64,000 nucleotides of DNA from Chloroflexota bacterium. Lineage in GTDB: Bacteria; Chloroflexota; Anaerolineae; B4-G1; DUEL01. Made by a program: the position numbers and the translations under genes. The stretch covers positions 1 through 64,000 of the forward strand of contig JADBJJ010000029.1 in NCBI GenBank assembly GCA_014874475.1, in the 5' to 3' direction. The notes under the pieces are model-generated. The model was not told the origin of the DNA. It ran no database searches and worked only from the letters and a program-made list of their open reading frames with translations. Shown here in pieces: positions 43,817 through 57,319 of this stretch (the stretch's first letter is position 1; every line of letters begins with the position of its first letter).

Positions 43817-46390
43817 CTATGTTCCCATTGCGCGAACCGGGGAGCCTATCCGGCCCGATTCCTGCAAATTTCGTAACACATCCTTCAAGTACCGGGTGAC
43901 ATCCGCGGCGGAGGGCAGAAGGATGGCTTGCCGGGCAATTTCTCGGGCTTCGGCTATACTCAGAGCGCGAATCAACTCCTTGGCATAAGGGATAGCAGCA
44001 GGAGTCATACTGAACTCATCCAGTCCCAGCCCCAGAAGCAACGGAATGGCTATCGGTTCGCCAGCCAGTTCTCCGCATAAGCCGACCTTTTTGCCAAATC
44101 GGTGGGCGGTCTCAATGACTTGCTGAATCAGGCGAATCACAGCGGGGTCCAGCGGCTGATAGAGGGACTGCAACTGCTCATTGCCCCGATCGCATGCCAG
44201 GACATATTGCGTCAGGTCATTGGAGCCGATGCTGAAGAAATCCACCAGAGGGACCAGGAGGTCGGCGGCGATGGCCGCCGCTGGCGTCTCCACCATAATG
44301 CCCACCGGAATTTCTCGGGCATAGGGGATCCCCGATCGCTCCAGGTTCGCCTTTGCTTGCTCTAATGCTTCCAAGGCTTGGAGAACCTCGTCCCGGGTGG
44401 AGATCATCGGAAACATCACCCAGACGTTCCGCCCGGCACCTGCCCGGAGGATTGCCCGTAACTGCGGCTGGAATACATCGGGATGACTCAGCGAGAGGCG
44501 AATCGCTCGCACGCCCAGGAAAGGATTCGCCTCGGGAGAAAGTTTCAAGTAGGATAGGGGCTTATCTCCCCCAATATCCAGTGTGCGGATGATAAGGGGA
44601 CGCAAGCCGAGCACATCGGCGATAGCCCGATATGCCGCATGCTGTTCTTCTTCATCGGGCATGGTCGCCCGGTCCACGAACAGAAACTCCGTGCGCAGCA
44701 GGCCTACACCCTCAGCGCCAGAGTCCACTGCCTCGCGGGCTGAGGCCACATCCCCGATATTGGCAAATACCTCCACCCGGTGTCCGTCCAGGGTGATGGC
44801 GGGTTGACCGGCCTGGGAGAGCGCCGCAGCGGCCAGAGCCTCCCGTTGAACCCGGATTTCTTCATACTGACGGAGACGTTCTTGGGAGGGACTGACCTCT
44901 ACCAGACCGGCTTCTCCATCTACAGCCACCATCGTGCCATCGGGGATTTCCAACACTTTTTCGCTCAGACCCACCACTGCCGGAATACCCCACATCCGCG
45001 CCAGGATCGCGACATGAGAAGTTACCCCCCCGCCCACAGCACAGATTCCTTTCACTCTTTCCCGATCCAGACGGGCCGTATCAGAAGGGGTCAAATCTTT
45101 CGCCACCACGATCATCGGATGAGAAAGTGCCCGCAATGGGTCATGCTCCTCAGCCCCGACCAGAATTCGCATCAACCGCCGATGAATATCCCGAACATCC
45201 GCTGCCCGCAATTGGGATAACTCGCTATCTCCCTGCGCGAATTGAGCAACCCATTCGTTGAAAACCTCTTCCACTGCCACCTCGGCATTGGAAACCCGTT
45301 TTCGGATTTTCTCCTCCATCGCTCCGGTCAAAACGGGGTCCTCCAGCATCATCCGCTGGAATTCAAAGATGCGTGCCGTCTGCGGGTCTTGGGCAGCGAC
45401 TTCTTGTTGCAGAGCCAGCAGTTCCTGGCGGGCCTGTTCCAGCGCGCCCTGTAAACGGGACACCTCCGCTTGCACATCGCTCACAACCCGGTGCTCCACA
45501 TGCCAGGTAAGAGGACGGTATTGAAAGACTGGAGCAACGGCAATACCGGAAGAGGCGGGAATGCCCCGCAACCGCCCTTCCATCTCATCTTCTGCAGGCG
45601 GAGGTGCAGTTACTGCCACTTCCGGCCTGGCTTTTGGTGGAGGCGCAGGAGGTGATTCCTCCATCTCGCCAAAACCGCTTTCCACCAGCGCCTGGAGAGT
45701 GCGGATAGCCTCTGCCGCATCTTCTCCCCGCGCCACGATGCGAATCCGCTCTCCCTGCCATGCGGTTCCCTTGCTGGCGACTTCCATCATGCTTTTTGCG
45801 TCCGCCGGAGGACGACTTTGAGAGAGGTTCTGCACCGTGATACTGGCCTGGAAGCGCATCGCGGTTTGCACGAAGAGAGCCGCCGGACGGGCATGCAACC
45901 CCGTCGGGTTGGGCACGATCAACTCCGCACTTTCCTCAGGAACACCCTCTCCGGGCTTTTCTATCTGCGGGGGTGGCAACCCCTCCAGTTCCGGAATCTT
46001 GGATATGGCCAGGGCCTGTTCGGCAGCCCGCTGTACGGTTTCCAGGTCTCCATCCCCGGAAGCCGCGACCACAGCCGCAATGGCGCCTTCCACCAGCGGC
46101 GCGCTGGTCAGGCGTACCCGCTCCTGCCACTCTGGGGGCAGAGTTTCCAGCACCATCTGGGTGACCATCACCGCGCTGCCCAAGTCGGCCAACACCAATA
46201 CATCGCAGCCCTGCTCCAGGACGCGTTCCAGCGCATCCTGGACTTTTTCAAAACTGGTGCCCAGGCGGCCATCCTCTGTCCCGCCTGCCGGCAGCACAGG
46301 GACAGATGCCCCTCCGGCCATCTGCAGGGCTACCTCGCAGACCCCGGTGGCCAATTGTTCACTATGGGCAACGATCACGATACCGACCAA
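43817..46390 (-). CDS. Fused DhaM-HPr-Enzyme I phosphotransferase (PEP-dependent dihydroxyacetone kinase phosphoryl donor)
   Basis: 857 aa, three PTS modules in one chain. Residues 1-130 are a DhaM/EIIA-mannose-type domain with phospho-His9 (IVIVAHS). Residues 155-240 are HPr with His166 (NPTGLHARPAA) and a Ser46-like region (ADAKSMMEV). A Pro/Ala linker follows, then full Enzyme I from about 275 with phospho-His459 (GGVTSHVAILARMWGIP) and the C-terminal PEP-binding part (GSNDLTQYVLACDRGNE, GLCGELAG). It would take phosphate from PEP to DhaL-bound ADP with no other PTS protein. It starts with TTG behind AAGGAG. It is last in the glycerol operon, before a terminator. Confidence 0.93.
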   Translation of the reverse strand: MVGIVIVAHSEQLATGVCEVALQMAGGASVPVLPAGGTEDGRLGTSFEKVQDALERVLEQGCDVLVLADLGSAVMVTQMVLETLPPEWQERVRLTSAPLVEGAIAAVVAASGDGDLETVQRAAEQALAISKIPELEGLPPPQIEKPGEGVPEESAELIVPNPTGLHARPAALFVQTAMRFQASITVQNLSQSRPPADAKSMMEVASKGTAWQGERIRIVARGEDAAEAIRTLQALVESGFGEMEESPPAPPPKARPEVAVTAPPPAEDEMEGRLRGIPASSGIAVAPVFQYRPLTWHVEHRVVSDVQAEVSRLQGALEQARQELLALQQEVAAQDPQTARIFEFQRMMLEDPVLTGAMEEKIRKRVSNAEVAVEEVFNEWVAQFAQGDSELSQLRAADVRDIHRRLMRILVGAEEHDPLRALSHPMIVVAKDLTPSDTARLDRERVKGICAVGGGVTSHVAILARMWGIPAVVGLSEKVLEIPDGTMVAVDGEAGLVEVSPSQERLRQYEEIRVQREALAAAALSQAGQPAITLDGHRVEVFANIGDVASAREAVDSGAEGVGLLRTEFLFVDRATMPDEEEQHAAYRAIADVLGLRPLIIRTLDIGGDKPLSYLKLSPEANPFLGVRAIRLSLSHPDVFQPQLRAILRAGAGRNVWVMFPMISTRDEVLQALEALEQAKANLERSGIPYAREIPVGIMVETPAAAIAADLLVPLVDFFSIGSNDLTQYVLACDRGNEQLQSLYQPLDPAVIRLIQQVIETAHRFGKKVGLCGELAGEPIAIPLLLGLGLDEFSMTPAAIPYAKELIRALSIAEAREIARQAILLPSAADVTRYLKDVLRNLQESGRIGSPVRAMGT

Positions 46391-47598: not shown

Positions 47599-48762
47599 TC
47601 ATGCCGGGGGAAGCGGCTCCATATGAGTGCGACAGGGCACCGAAATCCCCATCTTGGCGCAGACCAAATCCACCGTCTTCTCTGCCATCAACCGGCAGGT
47701 GGTCAGTTTGCCACCGGTGATGGTGATGAACCCGCCGAGGCCGTTCAACGGCTCGTGGTCCAGCACGTAGAAAGCCCGGCTGACCTCTCTGCGCTCCTCC
47801 TCTTCGGCCTCCTGGGGAGGCTGATAGAGGGGGCGAACCGCCGCGTAATACCGCTGGATGCCCATATCTTCAATCGCTGGGACCATCTGGGTGCATTCGT
47901 CCAGCAACAGGTCAATCTCCCATCCCTGAATACAAAAGTCGTCCGGGTCCTGGATCGGCACCGATGTAGTGCCCAGGACAATCGTTGTGCCGACGGGCAC
48001 AATGATATCGCCATCGGTCGGGGGGCGGCAGCGGTTGATCGCCCGCCGAACTGGACGGCTGTCCAGCACTACCATCGTTCCGTAGTCCAGCGCCATCGGC
48101 ACCTCAATCCCTGCCAGACGAGCCGTTTTCTCCGTCCACGGACCAGTCGCGTTGACGACGTATTCGGCGCGTACCAGATATTCCTCCCCAGAGGTCTGGT
48201 CTATTGCCCGCACGCCGACCACGCGGTCCCCCTCCCGGAGAATCTCCGTGACCAGTGTATAGAGCATCGCCTGGGCGCCATACTCCTTCGCCGCTTTGAC
48301 GCTTCCGATACAGAGCGTCCAGCCGTCCACACTTCCATCCGGCACCACCACGGCCTGACGAACTTGTGGGGAGAGAGCCGGTTCCTCCCGAAGGGCCTCT
48401 GAGCCAGAGACGATCTCCACCGGAATGCCCACGCGCTGGCAGCCCTCCACGAGCCGGGGCAGGAATGCCTCATCGGCATCGGTCAGGGCGACGAAGAAAC
48501 CGCCGGTGTCTTCAATGGCCTGAGGGGCAATCTGGCGCAGGATGCGGTTTTCTACGATGCACTCTTCTGCAGCAGGCGGGTCTTTGACCGCATACCGGGC
48601 ACCGCTATGCAGAAGCCCGTGGAAATTTCCCGAGGTGCCACTTGCCAGATTCCCTCGTTCCAGCAGGATGGCCTGAATGCCCCGCATCGCCAGGTCCCGC
48701 AACACGGCGGTGCCAGTCGCGCCTCCTCCGATCACCACTACCTGAGTCTCTAACGTTTTCAT
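47599..48762 (-). CDS. FAD-dependent glycerol-3-phosphate dehydrogenase (GlpA-like)
   Basis: 387 aa. FAD-binding VVVIGGGATGTAVLRDLAMRG at the N-terminus, LERGNLASGTSGNFHGLLHSGARYAV (substrate/FAD region), VNATGPWTEKTA and GGKLTTCRLMAEKTVDLVC near the end. It oxidises glycerol-3-phosphate to dihydroxyacetone phosphate. It lacks the C-terminal [2Fe-2S]/BFD extension of E. coli GlpA, and no glpB or glpC is present. Instead etfA and etfB precede it directly, so ETF is a likely electron acceptor. AGGAGG lies 6 bases before the ATG. Confidence 0.88.
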   Translation of the reverse strand: MKTLETQVVVIGGGATGTAVLRDLAMRGIQAILLERGNLASGTSGNFHGLLHSGARYAVKDPPAAEECIVENRILRQIAPQAIEDTGGFFVALTDADEAFLPRLVEGCQRVGIPVEIVSGSEALREEPALSPQVRQAVVVPDGSVDGWTLCIGSVKAAKEYGAQAMLYTLVTEILREGDRVVGVRAIDQTSGEEYLVRAEYVVNATGPWTEKTARLAGIEVPMALDYGTMVVLDSRPVRRAINRCRPPTDGDIIVPVGTTIVLGTTSVPIQDPDDFCIQGWEIDLLLDECTQMVPAIEDMGIQRYYAAVRPLYQPPQEAEEEERREVSRAFYVLDHEPLNGLGGFITITGGKLTTCRLMAEKTVDLVCAKMGISVPCRTHMEPLPPA

Positions 48763-48780
48763 AGTAACCTCCTGACATCA

Positions 48781-49767
48781 TCAGGAACGCATTTCCTGGA
48801 AGGATCGAATCAGTGGCGGAACGACTTTTTCCCACTCGCCGACCACGCCGATATGAGCCAACTTGAAGATAGGAGCATCTGGGTCTTTGTTGATGGCGAC
48901 GATGGTCTTGGATGACCCTGCACCGGCCATATGTTGGGTCGCGCCGGATATTCCCACCGCGATATACAGTTTCGGCGCGACGATTTTGCCCGTCTGGCCC
49001 ACCAGGTGGGAGTGGGGCACCCAGCCCATATCGGCTGCGGGCCGGGATCCGCCAACGGCTGCGCCCAACACGCGAGCCAGTTCATGCAAGATACTGAACC
49101 CTTCGGCGCTTCCCATCCCCCGCCCGCCGCTGACGATGATTTCCGCCCGGTCCAGGCTGAGTCCTCTCTCCTCCGCTGCCTCTACTCGCTCCACAACCGT
49201 TACCGAGGTGGAAAAGGCCTCAGGGATAGGGATTTCCTGAATTTCGCCCGTGCGGAGGGCGTCGGCCGGTAACGGCTCAAACGCGCGGGAGCGGATAGTG
49301 GCAACCTGCAACAATCCCCGGGCACACATGTAGGCCATGGCCTTCCCACCGTATACGGGGCGGAGCCAGCGGATGTCGCCGTTCTGAACGGCAAAGCCTG
49401 TGCAATCCGTCACGATACCGGCCTTCAGCCGGTACGCCAAGCGGGGGCCCACATGCCCTCCGAACAACTCATCGTGAGGCAAAAGCACCACCCGGGGAGC
49501 GAGTTGGCGAACCACTTCCTCTGTTATCCCTAACACCACCTCATCTTCCGGACGCTCCAGGCAGGGATGGTCAGCCAGCAGGACCTGATCGGCCCCGTGG
49601 TGAATCAGAGCAGGAGCATGTTCTCTCACTCCCAATCCCAGGAAAAGTGCCTGGACAGGAACGCTGCCCAGTTGCTGGCTCAGCGACCGTGCGACAGCCA
49701 GCAGTTCCAGCCCGGAGCGGGGAATAGATGAGCGGGTACCCATGCAGAACGTCAGGATAGACGCCAT
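48781..49767 (-). CDS. etfA: Electron transfer flavoprotein, alpha subunit
   Basis: 328 aa. The C-terminal FAD domain has the family signature VGQTGKIVAPKLYIAVGISGATQHMAG and SGGRGMGSAEGFSILHELARVLGAAVGGSRPAAD. It forms a heterodimer with EtfB and carries electrons from the dehydrogenase. GAGGTGAAAG precedes the ATG. It lies between etfB and the GlpA-like gene with short gaps. Confidence 0.93.
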   Translation of the reverse strand: MASILTFCMGTRSSIPRSGLELLAVARSLSQQLGSVPVQALFLGLGVREHAPALIHHGADQVLLADHPCLERPEDEVVLGITEEVVRQLAPRVVLLPHDELFGGHVGPRLAYRLKAGIVTDCTGFAVQNGDIRWLRPVYGGKAMAYMCARGLLQVATIRSRAFEPLPADALRTGEIQEIPIPEAFSTSVTVVERVEAAEERGLSLDRAEIIVSGGRGMGSAEGFSILHELARVLGAAVGGSRPAADMGWVPHSHLVGQTGKIVAPKLYIAVGISGATQHMAGAGSSKTIVAINKDPDAPIFKLAHIGVVGEWEKVVPPLIRSFQEMRS

Positions 49768-49779
49768 CTTTCTTTCACC

Positions 49780-50577
49780 TCACACCAATCCAAGTTCTCG
49801 CAAGCGTAGGGCCAGATTTCGCGCTCGTTCTTCCGCTGATTCTCCGGCGATCAACTCGCAGCGGATTTCCCGCTGGGGGATCCACATTTCGTCTATCTCA
49901 ATCCGCCCCTCCTGGCCCAGCGCGGCCGCGTCCAGACTCAGGTCAGTTGCTGTCCAGGTGGGAATAGGGGTCCGCATGGCAGCCCGGATTCCTTTTACTG
50001 AGGCGTAGCGAGGAACGTTGCTTTCATCGTTGGTGATGGTTGCCAGACAGGGAAGAGGGGCTTCCAAGATCTCGTAGCCGCTCTCGGTGGGCCGCTTCAG
50101 GCGGACTTTTCCATTAGATGAGACCAGGTTGGCCACCAGGGTTGCACAAGGAATGCCCAACTCCTCAGCCAAGAAGGGGCCCACCAGTCCCATTTCCACA
50201 TCTCCGGCCTGTCGCCCACACAGGATGAGGTCAAAGTCGCCGATTTTGCGCAACGCAGCAGCCAAGATACGGGCCTTGCCAAACGAGTCGGTCTGCTCAA
50301 AGAGGGGGTCGCAGAGAAGAATAGCCGCATCTGCTCCCATCGCCAGCGCTTGATGGAGAGACTGGATCGTCTCCTTTGTCCCGATGCTCACGATGGTTAC
50401 CTGTCCGCCCCATCTCTCTTTGGCTTGAATGGCCACTTCTACCGCGACTTCGTCGTAAGAACTAATAACCAGAGGGTGACTACCCCGAATTTGGGTCTTT
50501 GCCACCGGATCAATGCGAAATAGGTGAAAGGGGACTTCGGGATCTATAATTTGTTTGAGACAGACCACAATGTGCAT
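49780..50577 (-). CDS. etfB: Electron transfer flavoprotein, beta subunit
   Basis: 265 aa. Start MHIVVCLKQIIDPEVPF is typical. The AMP/FAD-binding loop (LCGRQAGDVEMGLVGPFLAEELG) and the recognition-loop region LPCLATITNDESNVPRYASVKGI are present. The start is chosen from GAGGTGGAG. An upstream in-frame extension is not conserved in character. It follows glpK by 84 bases. Confidence 0.93.
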   Translation of the reverse strand: MHIVVCLKQIIDPEVPFHLFRIDPVAKTQIRGSHPLVISSYDEVAVEVAIQAKERWGGQVTIVSIGTKETIQSLHQALAMGADAAILLCDPLFEQTDSFGKARILAAALRKIGDFDLILCGRQAGDVEMGLVGPFLAEELGIPCATLVANLVSSNGKVRLKRPTESGYEILEAPLPCLATITNDESNVPRYASVKGIRAAMRTPIPTWTATDLSLDAAALGQEGRIEIDEMWIPQREIRCELIAGESAEERARNLALRLRELGLV

Positions 50578-50661
50578 GCTCCACCTCAGATAAGACAGGG
50601 AGGGAACAGGGAAAGGTACCCCCCGTTCCCTCCCATGCCCCTTCATTCAAAGGTGGTTGAT

Positions 50662-52173
50662 TTATTCAACCCACCCGAAGGTGCGCTCCACTGCCTTCAG
50701 CCACCCCTTGTACAACCGCTCGCGGGTCTCGGGATCCATCTTGGGCTCCCAGACCTTATCTACCGCCCAGTTCTTGCGCAGGTCGTCCTCGCTCTCCCAG
50801 AAGCCGACAGCGAGCCCGGCAGCGTAGGCGGCGCCCAGCGCGGTGGTCTCGGCCACCACCGGGCGGATAACCGGCACGCCCAGGATGTCGGCCTGGAACT
50901 GCATCAGGAGTTCGTTGAAGACCATACCGCCGTCCACTTTCAGGGCGGTGAGACGCACGCCGGAGTCCTTCTCCATTGCGTCCAGCACCTCCCGGGTCTG
51001 GTAGGCAGTGGCTTCCAGCGCGGCGCGACAGATGTGGGCCTTGGTGATGTAGCGGGTCAGGCCAACGATGACGCCGCGGGCGTCCAGCCGCCAGTAGGGC
51101 GCAAAGAGGCCAGAGAAGGCCGGGACGAAGTAGATACCCCCGCTGTCGGGCACCGACCGGGCGTAGTCCTCAATGTGCTTGGAGAAATTGTAGAAATTCA
51201 GATTGTCCCGCAGCCACTGGACCAGAGCCCCCGTGATGGCGATGGAGCCCTCCAAGCAGTAGATAGCCGGCGCGTCGCCAAATTTGTAGCCCAGAGTGGT
51301 CAGCAAGCCGCTCTTGCTGGGGACGGGGGTGGTACCAGTGTTGAGGAGCATGAAGCAGCCGGTGCCGTAGGTATTCTTGGCCTCACCGGGGCTAAAGGAG
51401 GTCTGGCCCACCAGGGCCGCTTGCTGGTCGCCCAGGTCGCCGCAGACGGGAATAGAAGTACCAAAAGGCCCATCCTTCGGCGTGTAGCCGTAAATCTTGG
51501 GGTCGCTGGAGGGGCGAATCTCCGGCAGCATCTGGCGCGGAATGCCCAGGATGTCCAGAATCTCCTGGTCCCAGTCCAGTGTCTCCAGGTTCATCAGCAT
51601 GGTGCGGCTGGCGTTGGAGACATCGGTCACGTGGGCGCCGCCATCGGGGCCGCCGGTCAGCCACCAGATTTCCCAGGTGTCGATGTTGCCAAAGAGGGCC
51701 TCCCCCTTCTCCGCCGCGGCCCGAACTCCGGGGATATTATCCAGAATCCACTTGATCTTGGGGCCAGAGAAGTAGGTCGCCAGCGGCAGGCCGGTCTTGG
51801 GACGGAAGCGATCCTGCCCGCCATCCTTGGCCAGGTCTTCGCAGATGTCCTTGGTGCGGGTGCACTGCCAGACGATGGCGTTATAGAAAGGCTTGCCTGT
51901 CTTCTTATCCCAGACGATGGTAGTTTCTCGCTGGTTGGTGACCCCGATGGCCGCGATTTCGTTCGGGTCTATCCCGTTCTTCTGAAGGGCCCCCTTGATC
52001 ACCTCCTGGGTTCGTTCCCAGATCTCCATCGGGTTGTGCTCCACCCAGCCGGGTTGGGGATAGATCTGTTCGTGCTCCAGTTGGTGGACGCTCACCACCA
52101 GACCGGCATGGTCAAAGACCATAAAGCGGGTACTGGTCGTACCCTGATCCACAGCAGCAACGTACTTGGCCAT
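50662..52173 (-). CDS. glpK: Glycerol kinase
   Basis: 503 aa FGGY-family kinase that makes sn-glycerol-3-phosphate. Signatures: [20 protein letters not shown] at the N-terminus, [20 protein letters not shown], and the C-terminal [26 protein letters not shown]. Full length. AAAGGGGGT before the ATG. It lies 30 bases after dhaL in the operon. Confidence 0.96.
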
Positions 52174-52203: not shown

Positions 52204-52845
52204 TTAATTTCGCTTTTCTTGAGCCACATTGGCCATCACCCGCAGTAAGAGATAAGTTGAGGTGGCTCCGGGGTCCTGGTGCCCGATACTGCGTTCGCCC
52301 AGATAGCTGGCCCGGCCCTTTTTCGCCAGCATCGGGATGGTGTCCTTCATTCCCTGCTCGGCCGCCGAGGCGGCTCGCTCCAGCGCGTCTGCGATGTCGG
52401 CACCGTTCTGGAGGGCCTCCCGCAGTGCCTGGACGGCGGGGGTCAGGGCATCCACCATAGTTTTATCCCCCAGATTGGCCCTCCCGCGCATCACGACCCC
52501 CTGAAGGGCCGCATCCAGGGCAGCCAACACATCCTGGGGGTCCAGTTCGTATTTTCCCTCCAGTACCGTTCCAGCCCGCATAAACGCTGTGCCATAGAGG
52601 GGACCACCAGCCCCGCCGACGGTGGAGACCAGCGCCACGCCAACAGTCTTCAGGATGGTACCCGCGTCCTTATCTTCTACCGGGGGTAACCGTTCCAGGG
52701 CCGCCTTAAACCCGCGGTCCATATTGATCCCATGATCGGCATCACCAATCGCAGCGTCCAGTGCGGTCAGGTATTCTCTGTTGGCTTCAATCACCTCCGC
52801 CATCCGGTGCAGACAGGTCAGAAGGTCTTGTGTTGTGACAGGCAT
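52204..52845 (-). CDS. dhaL: Dihydroxyacetone kinase ADP-binding subunit DhaL
   Basis: 213 aa. Mg-ADP-binding Asp residues are in LDAAIGDADHGINMDRGF; the core helical barrel follows with VGGAGGPLYGTAFMRAG. In PTS-type systems ADP stays bound and is re-phosphorylated by DhaM. The start MPVTTQDLLTC follows GGGGAGAGGAAA. Located between dhaK and glpK. Confidence 0.94.
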   Translation of the reverse strand: MPVTTQDLLTCLHRMAEVIEANREYLTALDAAIGDADHGINMDRGFKAALERLPPVEDKDAGTILKTVGVALVSTVGGAGGPLYGTAFMRAGTVLEGKYELDPQDVLAALDAALQGVVMRGRANLGDKTMVDALTPAVQALREALQNGADIADALERAASAAEQGMKDTIPMLAKKGRASYLGERSIGHQDPGATSTYLLLRVMANVAQEKRN

Positions 52846-52914
52846 TTTCCTCTCCCCCAATTCCCCGCCCACCTCCGGAGATTCCCGGAGATGGGCAGGG
52901 ATAGGAGTCGGCTG

Positions 52915-53988
52915 CTATACCCCCCAGCGCAGGCCTGGCGTTTTGACCGGGGCATCCCACAGGTCAATCATCTCGTCGTCCATCCGCAGTAGCGTGATGG
53001 AGCAACCCTGCATCTCCAGGGAGGTGATATAGCGGCCAATGAGGCGACGGACAATGACCAGCCCTTTCTTCTCACAAATTTCGTGCAATTTGCGATAGAT
53101 AATGGGCAGTTCAATGTCCGGAGTGCCGCCCATGCTGTTGACGAAGGCCAGGACGCGATCACCGGGGCGGAAAGGAGGATCCACCAGTTCCACATCCACC
53201 CACTCGCCTTTCTCCTCATCAAATTCCCGGACCGTTCGCCGGTATTCGGGGTCTTCAATGATGGAGAGGGCAAGCATTTCGGTAATCTCATCGGCGGTCT
53301 TGAGTTCCATCCGCTCACGCCCCGGCTCTCCGTGAATGCCGATACCCACCTCCATTTCATCCTCGCCCAGTTCAAAGGTGGGCTTGCCAGCCATAGGCAC
53401 TGTGCACGGGGTGAGGGCCATCCCCATACTGCGGCCGTTGATGTTCACCCGTCGGCAGAGGTCAGCGACCCGCCGCAGGTCGTAGCCCCGCTCTGCAGCG
53501 GCCCCGCAGATTTTCTCCGCCAGGACGGTGGTGCCGACTCCACGGCGGCCCGCCGTATAGAGGCTATCCTTCACGGCCACATCGTCGTCAATGAGAATGT
53601 TGAGCACCCGCAAGCCTTCGGCCCGGGCCATATCTGCCGCCATTTCAAAGTTCATCACGTCGCCGGTATAGTTCTTGACGATATAGAGTACACCGGCGCC
53701 GCCGTCCACCATCTTGGCGGCTTCCAGCATCTGGTCCGGAGTAGGGGAGGTGAAGACCTGACCCGGGCATGCTGCGTCCAGCATCCCCATACCGACGAAC
53801 CCCCCGTGCATGGGCTCATGGCCACTTCCGCCGCCGGAGATGACAGCCACCTTTCCCCGGACCGGGGCATCAGCGCGGTAGATGAAATCGGGGGCGAAGT
53901 GGACCTTCACCATATCTGGGAAAGCCAACGCGATGCCTTCCAGTTCCTCTTTGACCACATCTTCCGGGCGATTGATCAGCTTTTTCAT
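52915..53988 (-). CDS. dhaK: Dihydroxyacetone kinase substrate-binding subunit DhaK
   Basis: 357 aa. It binds dihydroxyacetone covalently through His219 ([13 protein letters not shown]). N-terminal [16 protein letters not shown] and [17 protein letters not shown] segments are typical. Together with DhaL and the fused DhaM protein it forms a PEP-dependent kinase. AAGGAGGGG precedes the ATG. Confidence 0.95.
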
Positions 53989-54054: not shown

Positions 54055-54846
54055 CTATTTTTCGGGGAGGGAGCGGCTGATCAGCCAATCGTAGGTCAGG
54101 ATGCCCAAGACGCCGCCGACCAGGGGGCCCACAATGGGGCAGATGATCCAGTACAGGCCCGTAAAGAGACCCTTGGTGCCGATCAGAGCACCGAAGAGGC
54201 GGGGGCCGAAGTCACGGGCCGGGTTAATGGCGTACCCGCTGGGGCCGCCCAGGCAGAGGCCAACTCCCAGAACGACAAGGCCGACCAGTAGGGGGCCCAG
54301 ATTGGCACCAACACCCAGGTTCCTGGAGTCGCCCACTGCCGCCACGCCCCAGAGCAAAACGGCGGTCCCGAAGATCTCAGCGATGAAGGCATTCAAGAGG
54401 GAGTAGGAGGCTGCCGCCTGTCCTCCCGCGCCGCCCCAGAAGGCCTGGCCGAAAACAGAGCCGGGGCCAGTGCACCAGACGTTAGGCAGCCCCGCTGCCT
54501 GCAGGCCCTCCATATAGACCAGATAGACGCCAAGAGCACCCAGGAACGCACCGGCGATCTGGGAGATCCAATAGGGGATCAGCTTGCGCCAGGGAAAGAC
54601 GCCCCGCACCGCCATAGCCAGGCTCACTGCTGGGTTGATGTGAGCGCCAGAAACTCCCCCAGCCACATACACGGCCACAACTACCGCCATAGCCCAGCCG
54701 AAGGTTATGGTATTCCAGTTATAGGCCGGAGCGGCCAGGCGGGGGGCCAGACCCACGTTGGCAACAACGCCATCGCCCAGCAGAATCAGAATGAAGGTCC
54801 CGAAGACCTCGGCTATGCACTCTCCCAGCAGGCTGGTTTTTTTCAT
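54055..54846 (-). CDS. glpF: Glycerol facilitator / aquaglyceroporin
   Basis: 263 aa MIP-family channel. The two NPA boxes appear as HINPAVSLAM and AINPARDFGPRLFG; the Asp after the second NPAR is typical of glycerol-conducting members. Six membrane segments and two half-helices can be traced. First gene of the glycerol operon, with AGGAGG before the ATG and a leader of about 375 bases. Confidence 0.95.
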   Translation of the reverse strand: MKKTSLLGECIAEVFGTFILILLGDGVVANVGLAPRLAAPAYNWNTITFGWAMAVVVAVYVAGGVSGAHINPAVSLAMAVRGVFPWRKLIPYWISQIAGAFLGALGVYLVYMEGLQAAGLPNVWCTGPGSVFGQAFWGGAGGQAAASYSLLNAFIAEIFGTAVLLWGVAAVGDSRNLGVGANLGPLLVGLVVLGVGLCLGGPSGYAINPARDFGPRLFGALIGTKGLFTGLYWIICPIVGPLVGGVLGILTYDWLISRSLPEK

Positions 54847-55221
54847 CGCTTGCCTCCTTGATCAGTGGGAATGAAAGGTGGATAACATATGATAGGGGGG
54901 TTGGTTGTTAGTTTATATTTCTTTATCCTATATGCACCTCCTTGTAATACACCCTTCGTGTGTATTCCATCGCGCAGGCGTATTCCCATAGATCAGAAAC
55001 CACAGCCTAGCGCAAGATGAAACCCGCGCTACGTAGGCCACAAGTCTATGAATAGATGAACAAAAGGGGCAAGCATAAGGGAGAAAGGTAGATAATGAGT
55101 TAGGAAATCAAGAACAGGGCCGCTAATCAACCCCCTTCTTCCCGCCCATGGACGTATACGCATTCGGCCTCTCCCACTGGGGTACATCCAGGAGAACTCA
55201 ATAGATAGCGGGCTTATTCAA
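54847..55221 (-). other. Long 5' leader of the glycerol operon
   Basis: About 375 bases lie between the predicted transcription start and the glpF ATG. No known riboswitch class was recognised. On the minus strand an orphan AAGGAGGTG occurs at about 54933-54941 without an ATG at normal spacing; only a 4-codon GTG frame follows. The leader could contain a regulatory structure or an unrecognised small peptide. Confidence 0.4.
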
Positions 55222-55227
55222 AGTAGG

Positions 55228-55256
55228 ATTATAGCAGCCTGTCGACTGTCTGTCAA
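55228..55256 (-). promoter_or_regulatory. Perfect sigma70 promoter of the glycerol operon
   Basis: TTGACA (55251-55256) and TATAAT (55228-55233), both perfect, with a 17-base spacer on the minus strand. Start of transcription expected near 55221. Confidence 0.9.
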
Positions 55257-55270
55257 TAGACCCGGCACAG

Positions 55271-55291
55271 ATTGTTTCACATTGAAACAAT
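55271..55291 (-). promoter_or_regulatory. Candidate DhaR-binding palindrome
   Basis: ATTGTTTCA-CAT-TGAAACAAT, a perfect 21-bp inverted repeat centred at about -60 from the predicted start of the glycerol transcript. No U-tract follows on either strand, so it is not a terminator for dhaR. The position suits a class I activator of a sigma70 promoter. Confidence 0.65.
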
Positions 55292-55309
55292 TTAAGGCTT
55301 TAGTCTGTT

Positions 55310-57319
55310 TTAAAATGAAGCGGTGGTGTGGCGCTGGTTGCGGGGTTTTTGCCGAAAGTCGGCCGGATGGATACCAAAGGACCTCATTTTGCGCCACAGG
55401 GTGGTGCGCCCCACTCCTAAGGCACTGGCCATCTGGGTAATGTTCCACCGGAGAGTCTGCCCAGCCAGAATGATAGCCTGCCGTTCCGCTTCTTCAAAAG
55501 TGAGGAGTTTCCCCCTCTCGTCTCCCGATACGGCCCGACGTAGTTCTTCCGGAAGATGTCGGACGCTCAGTTCTGTCCCATCCACCAAATGAACTGCCCA
55601 TTCCAGCACATTTTCCAGTTCCCGCAGATTCCCCGGCCAGGAATATGCTCTCAGGACAGCGATTGCGTCCGGGGAAATGATCACTTCTTTTCCCAACCGT
55701 GCAGCACATTTGTCCACAATATGGGTGGCCAGAAAGACAACGTCATCCCCTCGTTCCCGCAGAGGAGGAATGGTCAGAGTCAACGACCGTAACCGATAAA
55801 ACAGATCTGCCCGAAAGCGCTTTTGCCGCATCTCTTCTTCCAGGTTCACGCCGGAGGCGGCGATGATTCGCACATCAATGGGGATGGTGGAGACGCCTCC
55901 GATTCGGACAACCTTTTTGGTATCTATGATCTCCAGCAGGGCAGCCTGAAGGTTCAGCGGTAGACTCTCAATGTTTTGTAAAAAGATCGTGCCCCCAGAG
56001 GCAATCTCAAACTTGCTGGGACGGCTTCCCCGAGAGGGCCCCATTCCATTCTCATAACCCAGCAACTCGTAGGCGATCATCTCCCGGGGAGCAGCAGCAC
56101 AATTCACAGAGACAAAAGGACCATCGGCATAATGACTGGCGTTATGGATGGCCTGAGCGAAGAGGTCCTTGCCGGTGCCGGGTTCGCCCAACAACAGCAC
56201 TGGGGCATTACAACGAGCAATAGCACGGGCGTAATGGATGACTCGCCGCATGCGCGTACTCCACCCCAAAATTTCATCAAAGGTGACAATGGCCTGCATT
56301 CCCATTATGTGGCGGGCCAGTTGTCGCGCCTCTTTCACAGGCCTCAATGTAATCACAAAACCACTGGGGCGAGTCCCTTCCCTCATAACATCCAGGGAAA
56401 CCATCGCCAGGCGAGGAGAGTTGCTGCCGCCAAAAGCAACCTCTCTTTCCGACAGCGGAGTTTTGCCGAAAAGACAGGTCTGAATTTCCGGAGGAAGGCT
56501 GACCAGAGAGCCCAAAGGGCGCCCTGGCGCACTTTTGGGCGAAATGCCCAGGATATCCCCGGCGCTGGCGTTCAGGTGGGTGACCACCCCCTGAGCATCC
56601 AGGAATATGATTCCCTTCTGCATCGCTTGCAGGGATGCTTTCAGTTCCGCCAGATGCCGATGGGCTTGAGCGAGGCTGGCATCGGCCTGCAACTGGTTTT
56701 CAATCGCCCGTGCGGTCGCCATCACAAGGCCCAAGGTATGCGGATGGCTGCACTCCACCGGCGTGATGATCCCGATGACTCCGATCACCCGGCCGCAGGG
56801 GTCATGAACAGGAGCAGCACTCCCTGAGAATCGGTGTAGACTCTTGAAGAAATGTTCGGGTCCCACTACCTGAACCGGGACACCTTCATTCAGTGCGAGG
56901 GCTGCCGCATTGGTACCCAGACATTCCTCCGTCATCGCGATACCTTCCGTAAATCCGCAACCATATAAGGTATCTCGCAGCCAGCGATCACCCAGAGATT
57001 CTATGACAAAGTGATGCTGATTGGTCAAATACACAACGATTCCCGATTCGCCTGCGAACTGGTAAATATCTTCCATCAGCGGCCGGGCAATGGCGATCAA
57101 ATCAAAATGTTCCCGGCGTTGCTGCTCCAGTCCTTCCGGTGTACAACGAACCAGCCGAGGAATAGCCTGGGGATCTAATCCGGCATCCCGGCAACGAATC
57201 CAGGAACGTGCAATCGCCGGGTCCAGCGAGGAGAGAGATAATGTTCCCTCTTGAACAAAATTCTCCCAAAGCAAAGTTAATCTGTGGATGTCATAAGGGT
57301 ATGCTGTCGGTAGCATCAT
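55310..57319 (-). CDS. dhaR: DhaR-like glycerol/dihydroxyacetone operon regulator (AAA+ enhancer-binding-protein family)
   Basis: 669 aa. The N-terminal GAF-like sensory region (about 60-190, GESGIVVYLTNQHHFVIESLGD) is followed by a PAS domain (about 225-300, GIIFLDAQGVVTHLNASAGDILG). The AAA+ domain has Walker A GEPGTGKD near residue 377. A Fis-type HTH lies near 623-643 (ITQMASALGVGRTTLWRKM). The sigma54-contacting GAFTGA loop is replaced by GMGPSRG (near 425), so sigma54 activation is unlikely. E. coli DhaR likewise acts on a sigma70 promoter. GGGGAGGTGG precedes the ATG. It lies directly upstream of, and in the same direction as, the operon it probably controls. Confidence 0.88.
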   Translation of the reverse strand: MMLPTAYPYDIHRLTLLWENFVQEGTLSLSSLDPAIARSWIRCRDAGLDPQAIPRLVRCTPEGLEQQRREHFDLIAIARPLMEDIYQFAGESGIVVYLTNQHHFVIESLGDRWLRDTLYGCGFTEGIAMTEECLGTNAAALALNEGVPVQVVGPEHFFKSLHRFSGSAAPVHDPCGRVIGVIGIITPVECSHPHTLGLVMATARAIENQLQADASLAQAHRHLAELKASLQAMQKGIIFLDAQGVVTHLNASAGDILGISPKSAPGRPLGSLVSLPPEIQTCLFGKTPLSEREVAFGGSNSPRLAMVSLDVMREGTRPSGFVITLRPVKEARQLARHIMGMQAIVTFDEILGWSTRMRRVIHYARAIARCNAPVLLLGEPGTGKDLFAQAIHNASHYADGPFVSVNCAAAPREMIAYELLGYENGMGPSRGSRPSKFEIASGGTIFLQNIESLPLNLQAALLEIIDTKKVVRIGGVSTIPIDVRIIAASGVNLEEEMRQKRFRADLFYRLRSLTLTIPPLRERGDDVVFLATHIVDKCAARLGKEVIISPDAIAVLRAYSWPGNLRELENVLEWAVHLVDGTELSVRHLPEELRRAVSGDERGKLLTFEEAERQAIILAGQTLRWNITQMASALGVGRTTLWRKMRSFGIHPADFRQKPRNQRHTTASF

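Follow-up and report, generated by a model that had tools for sequence, protein, structure and literature searches.

The window, which is the whole 64-kb stretch of DNA that was analysed, carries a gene for the regulator DhaR and, on the same strand, a downstream group of dha and glp genes. The features are given below from upstream to downstream along the minus strand.

55310–57319, minus strand: dhaR, a 669-residue open reading frame with the domain order GAF-PAS-AAA+-lid-HTH_8 (Fis type)
56168–56188, minus strand: Walker A motif GEPGTGK, intact (residues 378–384, by alignment)
56027–56047, minus strand: L1 loop GMGPSRG, at the GAFTGA position (residues 425–431, by alignment)
55973–55996, minus strand: Walker B region GGTIFLQN, with Q-N instead of the usual D-E pair (by alignment)
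55304–55324: distal palindrome, degenerate, ACCGCTTCATTTTAAAACAGA on the minus strand, core 10/12, centre near −93
55271–55291: proximal palindrome ATTGTTTCA-N3-TGAAACAAT, core 12/12, centre near −60
55251–55256, minus strand: −35 hexamer TTGACA, 14 bp after the proximal palindrome
55228–55233, minus strand: −10 hexamer TATAAT with TG before it (promoter scan)
54847–55221, minus strand: predicted glpF leader of 375 nt, its start placed from the promoter
54055–54846, minus strand: glpF (MIP family; domain scan, as for the genes below)
52915–53988, minus strand: dhaK (Dak1)
52204–52872, minus strand: dhaL (Dak2)
50662–52173, minus strand: glpK (FGGY kinase)
49780–50586, minus strand: etfB
48781–49767, minus strand: etfA
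47599–48762, minus strand: glycerol-3-phosphate dehydrogenase-like FAD oxidoreductase (DAO), its probable substrate assigned from the operon
43817–46390, minus strand: dhaM-like PTS donor of 857 residues, with EIIA-man, HPr and complete enzyme I domains in one chain

The linkage of dhaR to dhaK, dhaL and the PTS donor dhaM is present in the window. In the DhaM-like chain a full enzyme I (N, mobile and C domains) is located behind EIIA and HPr, and because this enzyme I is complete, DhaK and DhaL may have a PTS of their own. Another gene of the enzyme I type is found at C21:53890. The etfBA genes lie between glpK and the dehydrogenase-like gene (47599–50586), a position hinting that glycerol-3-phosphate oxidation sends its electrons via electron transfer flavoprotein. 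No other regulator gene was found among the operon proteins scanned.

Domain profiles for GAF, PAS, Sigma54_activat (PF00158), the AAA lid and HTH_8 all match the window DhaR. The protein is 33% identical to E. coli DhaR over nearly the full length (E = 3e-110), and its GAF-PAS part matches the crystal structures of E. coli DhaR by sequence (E = 2.4e-34). These structures are also the top fold match of the predicted model, and the known structures seen in the fold comparison include DhaR-DhaK and DhaR-DhaL. The model gave fold matches, but nothing new on the mechanism.

The initial annotation had described an AAA+ domain that keeps Walker A and has GMGPSRG in place of GAFTGA. The alignment confirms both points; the loss of the Walker B pair (GGTIFLQN), however, had been missed. 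With Q-N at this position, ATP hydrolysis has probably been lost in the window DhaR. The sigma-54-dependent enhancer-binding relatives, which we take to be of the AcoR type, have the same fold and domain order, and they are the nearest GAFTGA-bearing relatives in the named scan. They differ from the window protein in GAFTGA, in the Walker B D-E pair and in the sigma-54 partner, all of which are missing here.

The same losses are common among dha-linked proteins. Exact GAFTGA is absent from all 30 loci of the class that were aligned, and GAFSGA is present in three of them (L009, L011 and L024; by eye). GAFSGA has been counted as a variant able to act with sigma-54 (PMC6615313). In the named scan of 80 loci, all six loci with a DhaK match within reach are without the GAFTGA motif, whereas a DhaK match is in reach of none of the 66 loci that have GAFTGA by a loose pattern. 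Judged by eye, 4 of 25 dha-linked proteins (24 from Chloroflexota and that of E. coli) retain the Walker B glutamate, compared to 11 of 14 unlinked relatives and all four GAFTGA reference proteins. On these counts, dha-linked DhaR has usually lost the loop presumed to contact sigma-54 together with the presumed hydrolysis residue.

The genome that contains the window (3.0 Mb in 32 contigs, 97.7% complete) gave no match to the sigma-54 domains PF04552 and PF04963; the same profile search found matches in 4 of 14 control genomes. DhaR is the only protein in this genome with a strong PF00158 match, the three weaker ones being in frames of 833–870 residues. Across the class sample, PF04552 was found in 34 of 199 genomes. 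Two (G021 and G022) of the 20 dha-linked genomes in both samples have it, and therefore the absence of sigma-54 is not universal. A −24/−12 promoter is not apparent from the sequence: within the 464 bp that separate dhaR from glpF, the best match has 7 of 10 letters, and a sigma-54 promoter was dropped as a candidate on this ground.

The promoter upstream of glpF, TTGACA-17-TATAAT (55256–55228, minus strand), matches the sigma-70 consensus at 12 of 12 positions and has TG ahead of the −10 hexamer, and its description as perfect was well founded. The glpF transcript is predicted to start near 55221, about 7 nt past the −10 hexamer. The centre of the proximal palindrome, at 55281, is at −60 from this predicted start, in agreement with the distance of about 60 bp given originally.

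The proximal palindrome has complete 9-bp arms and is perfect. It begins about 19 nt past the dhaR stop codon and is the sole match in the 64 kb at up to three mismatches, compared to none in 100 shuffles. Genome-wide (3.0 Mb), the pattern TGTTTCA-N3-TGAAACA with up to two mismatches is found at this site (no mismatches) and at one other place (two mismatches). The reversed-pattern control gives three matches per strand, and imperfect single matches therefore mean little. The distal palindrome is located 33 bp upstream of the proximal one and overlaps the dhaR stop codon (55310–55312); it is the weak copy in the window. The palindrome of the initial annotation is thus real and unique in the window, but the single-site picture does not hold, as the distal copy of a tandem pair had been missed. 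As there is no further copy in the window, autorepression of dhaR through these sites would not be expected.

Several features of the glpF leader were noted. A stem closing the first ~100 nt can be drawn by eye in the window, more weakly than in the leaders of G101, G075 and G006, where a stem scan places a stem with different letters around the first ~100 nt. In these four leaders a P1-like stem of varying sequence can be drawn by eye, and the stem scan finds it in three of the four, but it is not general and an Rfam search gave only chance-level matches. A structured RNA at the leader start was therefore rejected as a claim. An extended Shine-Dalgarno-like element, AAGGAGGTGNNNATNGG, is located at 54927–54943 (minus strand), about 80–90 nt ahead of the real start codon, and a tiny frame follows it directly (ATA-GGA-TAA in the window). 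The element was also noted at C16:25484, C22:135799 and C23:75704 of G000. It has three exact matches in the genome, each 80–90 nt before a gene start, and a one-mismatch copy is similarly placed; two-mismatch counts equal those of the reversed control. Similar elements are found in many glpF leaders of the class. The leaders of six relatives (G075, G006, G022, G129, G021 and G071) have, by eye, an intrinsic-terminator-like hairpin and T-run between the sigma-70 promoter and glpF, which suggests attenuation or antitermination of glpF in some relatives.

The initial annotation had proposed a search for the same palindrome upstream of dha/glp operons in relatives. The count set comprised 38 loci, namely 34 genomes with DhaR matches and four named loci; G109 was dropped because its region is too short. 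Truncated or partial DhaR matches (for example G093, G078 and G056) were left out, as were 76 further loci from the named scan, the majority of them with GAFTGA. A pair was scored at a match of at least 18/24, with expectations from dinucleotide shuffles. The pair is present in 23 of 24 DhaR loci with GlpF or DhaK downstream (0.054 expected), with the core GTTTCA-N3-TGAAAC and with copies 31–34 bp apart in the DNA downstream of DhaR. The one miss, L068, has the operon and a degenerate pair (15/24) at 32 bp, with TTGATT at a gap of 13. Among DhaR loci without visible dha/glp neighbours the pair is found in 1 of 13, and this exception (L070) is on a 3-kb contig where the genes downstream of DhaR are out of view. 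Four loci labelled Anaerolineales or Anaerolineae (L068, L070, L071 and L096) fall among the class relatives in the tree described below, and the class is accordingly placed in Chloroflexota, probably as Anaerolineae. Since the motif was derived from the window and its close relatives, these few loci do not test it independently, as the distant ones do; the pair accompanies dha/glp-linked DhaR over a range of about 36–100% identity. DhaR relatives of 41–54% identity in L050–L055 and in the genomes of family f12 are without GAFTGA (two retain GAFSGA), and neither dha/glp neighbours nor the palindrome pair were found at these loci.

The distance between the pair and the promoter is also conserved. 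A −35 hexamer with at least 5/6 matches follows the proximal palindrome after 13 bp in nine loci and after 14 bp in eight, in total 17 of the 23 pair-bearing loci (0.46 expected). A complete promoter of at least 9/12 at this gap is likewise present in 17 of 23 (0.15 expected). The remaining six (G066, G094, G033, G030, G181 and L096) have 7–8/12 at the expected place; one of these, G030, is a pair-bearing locus that retains GAFSGA. The promoter at this gap is consensus in the window and its near relatives and weaker in more distant ones. In an alignment of proximal palindromes from 24 loci including E. coli, all selected for having a pair, the core columns have about 0.9–1.8 bits, with raised values at the hexamers and low ones in most of the linker. 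The location of the site centre at about −60 or further, in fixed phase to the −35 hexamer (the gap of 13 or 14 bp seen in these 17 loci), corresponds to class I geometry.

In E. coli K-12, the dhaK-dhaR region contains TATGTTTCATAGTGAAACATA and AATGTTCCATATTGAAACTTT, 31 bp apart, and no other site in the scanned 600 bp scores high. In both organisms DhaR has the order GAF-PAS-AAA+-HTH_8 without GAFTGA and with an altered Walker B (FLEK in E. coli), dhaK, dhaL and dhaM are nearby, and two GTTTCA-N3-TGAAAC palindromes about 31–33 bp apart precede dhaK or glpF. In sequence, the window site matches the pair before E. coli dhaK and would be the same operator. There are differences, however, in the arrangement. 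In E. coli, dhaR is divergent from dhaK with the pair between them, whereas in the window dhaR is upstream of the operon and co-directional with it. The window operon also adds glpF, glpK, etfBA and the glycerol-3-phosphate dehydrogenase, and there is no further copy of the site in its 64 kb. Moreover, no strong sigma-70 promoter was seen by eye at a gap of 13–14 bp in E. coli, while the promoter in the window is full consensus.

A tree was built from 80 proteins, drawn from the class and from the longer ones among the 80 nearest named loci. It places E. coli and Yersinia nurmii DhaR inside a Chloroflexota DhaR clade of 38 tips with a support of 1.0, to which the window protein also belongs. 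The nested clades around these two proteins have 30, 13 and 9 tips (support 0.999, 0.99 and 0.963). The tree is midpoint-rooted and so does not fix the direction of a transfer. For Yersinia nurmii (L094), only about 120 bp upstream of dhaK are available, which speak neither for nor against the operator.

In E. coli, DhaR is the activator of dhaKLM and works at a sigma-70 promoter. Our best explanation, with a probability of about 0.78, is that the window carries an orthologue of this E. coli-type switch, in which DhaR would act from two sites near −60 and −93 at a sigma-70 promoter, with DhaK and DhaL as likely co-regulators. Four observations support sigma-70: the profile search of the genome found no sigma-54 gene, the pair is tied to the dha/glp operon, the promoter hexamers follow it at a fixed gap of 13–14 bp, and the pair is also present beside dhaR of E. 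coli, whose product is reported to depend on sigma-70 (PMC3162934). The earlier proposal that an enhancer-binding-protein relative activates (class I) or represses transcription at a sigma-70 promoter is thereby supported comparatively, with DhaR binding and the sign of control as predictions.

One DhaR dimer is predicted to bind each palindrome, giving two tandem sites. In the most economical model, the two dimers would be on one face of the DNA, about three helical turns apart, and touch sigma-70 polymerase. DhaR would most likely touch the housekeeping RNA polymerase directly and so activate it, with no need for sigma-54 and probably none for ATP hydrolysis, and the promoter would drive glpF-dhaK-dhaL-glpK-etfBA-glpD(-dhaM) as a presumed co-transcribed unit. 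By analogy to E. coli, DhaK and DhaL are the likely corepressor and coactivator, acting on the GAF-PAS part. Work by Bachler et al. in 2005 and Shi in 2014 reportedly describes a signal path in E. coli in which DhaR is bound by DhaK and DhaL. As the operon region encodes DhaK, DhaL and the DhaM-like chain, this path would be available here.

Some points count against the best explanation: the six pair-bearing loci without a good promoter, the weak distal site of the window, the degenerate pair of L068, the PF04552 matches in G021 and G022, and the GAFSGA of G030. Another is the promoter itself, which is already consensus and has no obvious need for an activator. DhaR could instead act as a repressor on the pair, holding down a strong constitutive promoter until dihydroxyacetone releases it. 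As the promoters of the window and its near relatives should be strong unaided, repression is a real alternative, though we consider it unlikely. Both palindromes are upstream of the −35 hexamer and do not overlap the promoter core, the fixed gap of 13–14 bp suits polymerase contact, and the promoters at the same gap in more distant relatives are weaker.

Adjacency to dhaR is no proof of binding by DhaR, and the palindromes might be the sites of another regulator, for example a GlpR-type repressor, with DhaR a mere neighbour. This is quite improbable, as the pair tracks dha/glp-linked DhaR down to about 36% identity and into E. coli with its divergent dhaR, and the scanned operon proteins include no second regulator. 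The start of the proximal palindrome shortly after the dhaR stop codon could also indicate a terminator hairpin, or a chance inverted repeat, but this was rejected as barely credible: the arms are A+T-rich and lack a T-run behind them, the palindrome is absent from the terminator scan, and the pair is kept at its 31–34 bp spacing, sometimes far from the dhaR stop (335/369 nt in L058). Action through sigma-54 with a degenerate loop, which the GAFSGA of a few members might favour, is scarcely tenable in view of the undetected sigma-54 gene, the poor −24/−12 match and the missing Walker B glutamate in most dha-linked members.

The switch formed by DhaR, the pair and the sigma-70 promoter is most likely a newly found relative of a known switch and not a novel type, since the arrangement is found across the class and in E. 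coli. For E. coli DhaR, the loss of GAFTGA and the dependence on sigma-70 have been published (PMC3162934), and control of dhaKLM by DhaR is described in PMC6643234. The former source also treats TyrR, HupR and VpsR-type proteins as enhancer-binding-protein relatives that left sigma-54; like DhaR they have lost GAFTGA, with sigma-70 dependence reported or proposed (PMC3162934), but their targets differ. DhaR is, on the other hand, still listed as a sigma-54 enhancer in PMC8743547, which also names dhaK-dhaR among NtrC targets. A literature search aimed at Chloroflexota found no DhaR operator for this phylum; the E. coli pair may already be in print. What is added here is a candidate class-wide DhaR operator and its geometry, defined more sharply than in the initial annotation.

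A more far-reaching view, held only tentatively, is that the DhaR line left sigma-54 for good. In Chloroflexota the ring ATPase would then have decayed (L1 loop and Walker B glutamate) while the rigid twin palindrome, the 13–14 bp gap and the sigma-70 promoter were kept, and gammaproteobacterial DhaR and its operator were maybe acquired from such a lineage.

The pair provides an exact, conserved candidate operator for DhaR across two phyla, and the proteins that go with it are natural variants for studying how an enhancer-binding protein turns into a plain sigma-70 activator. Where neither the loop nor the sigma factor is present, the annotation of such Chloroflexota genes as sigma-54-dependent is probably mistaken.
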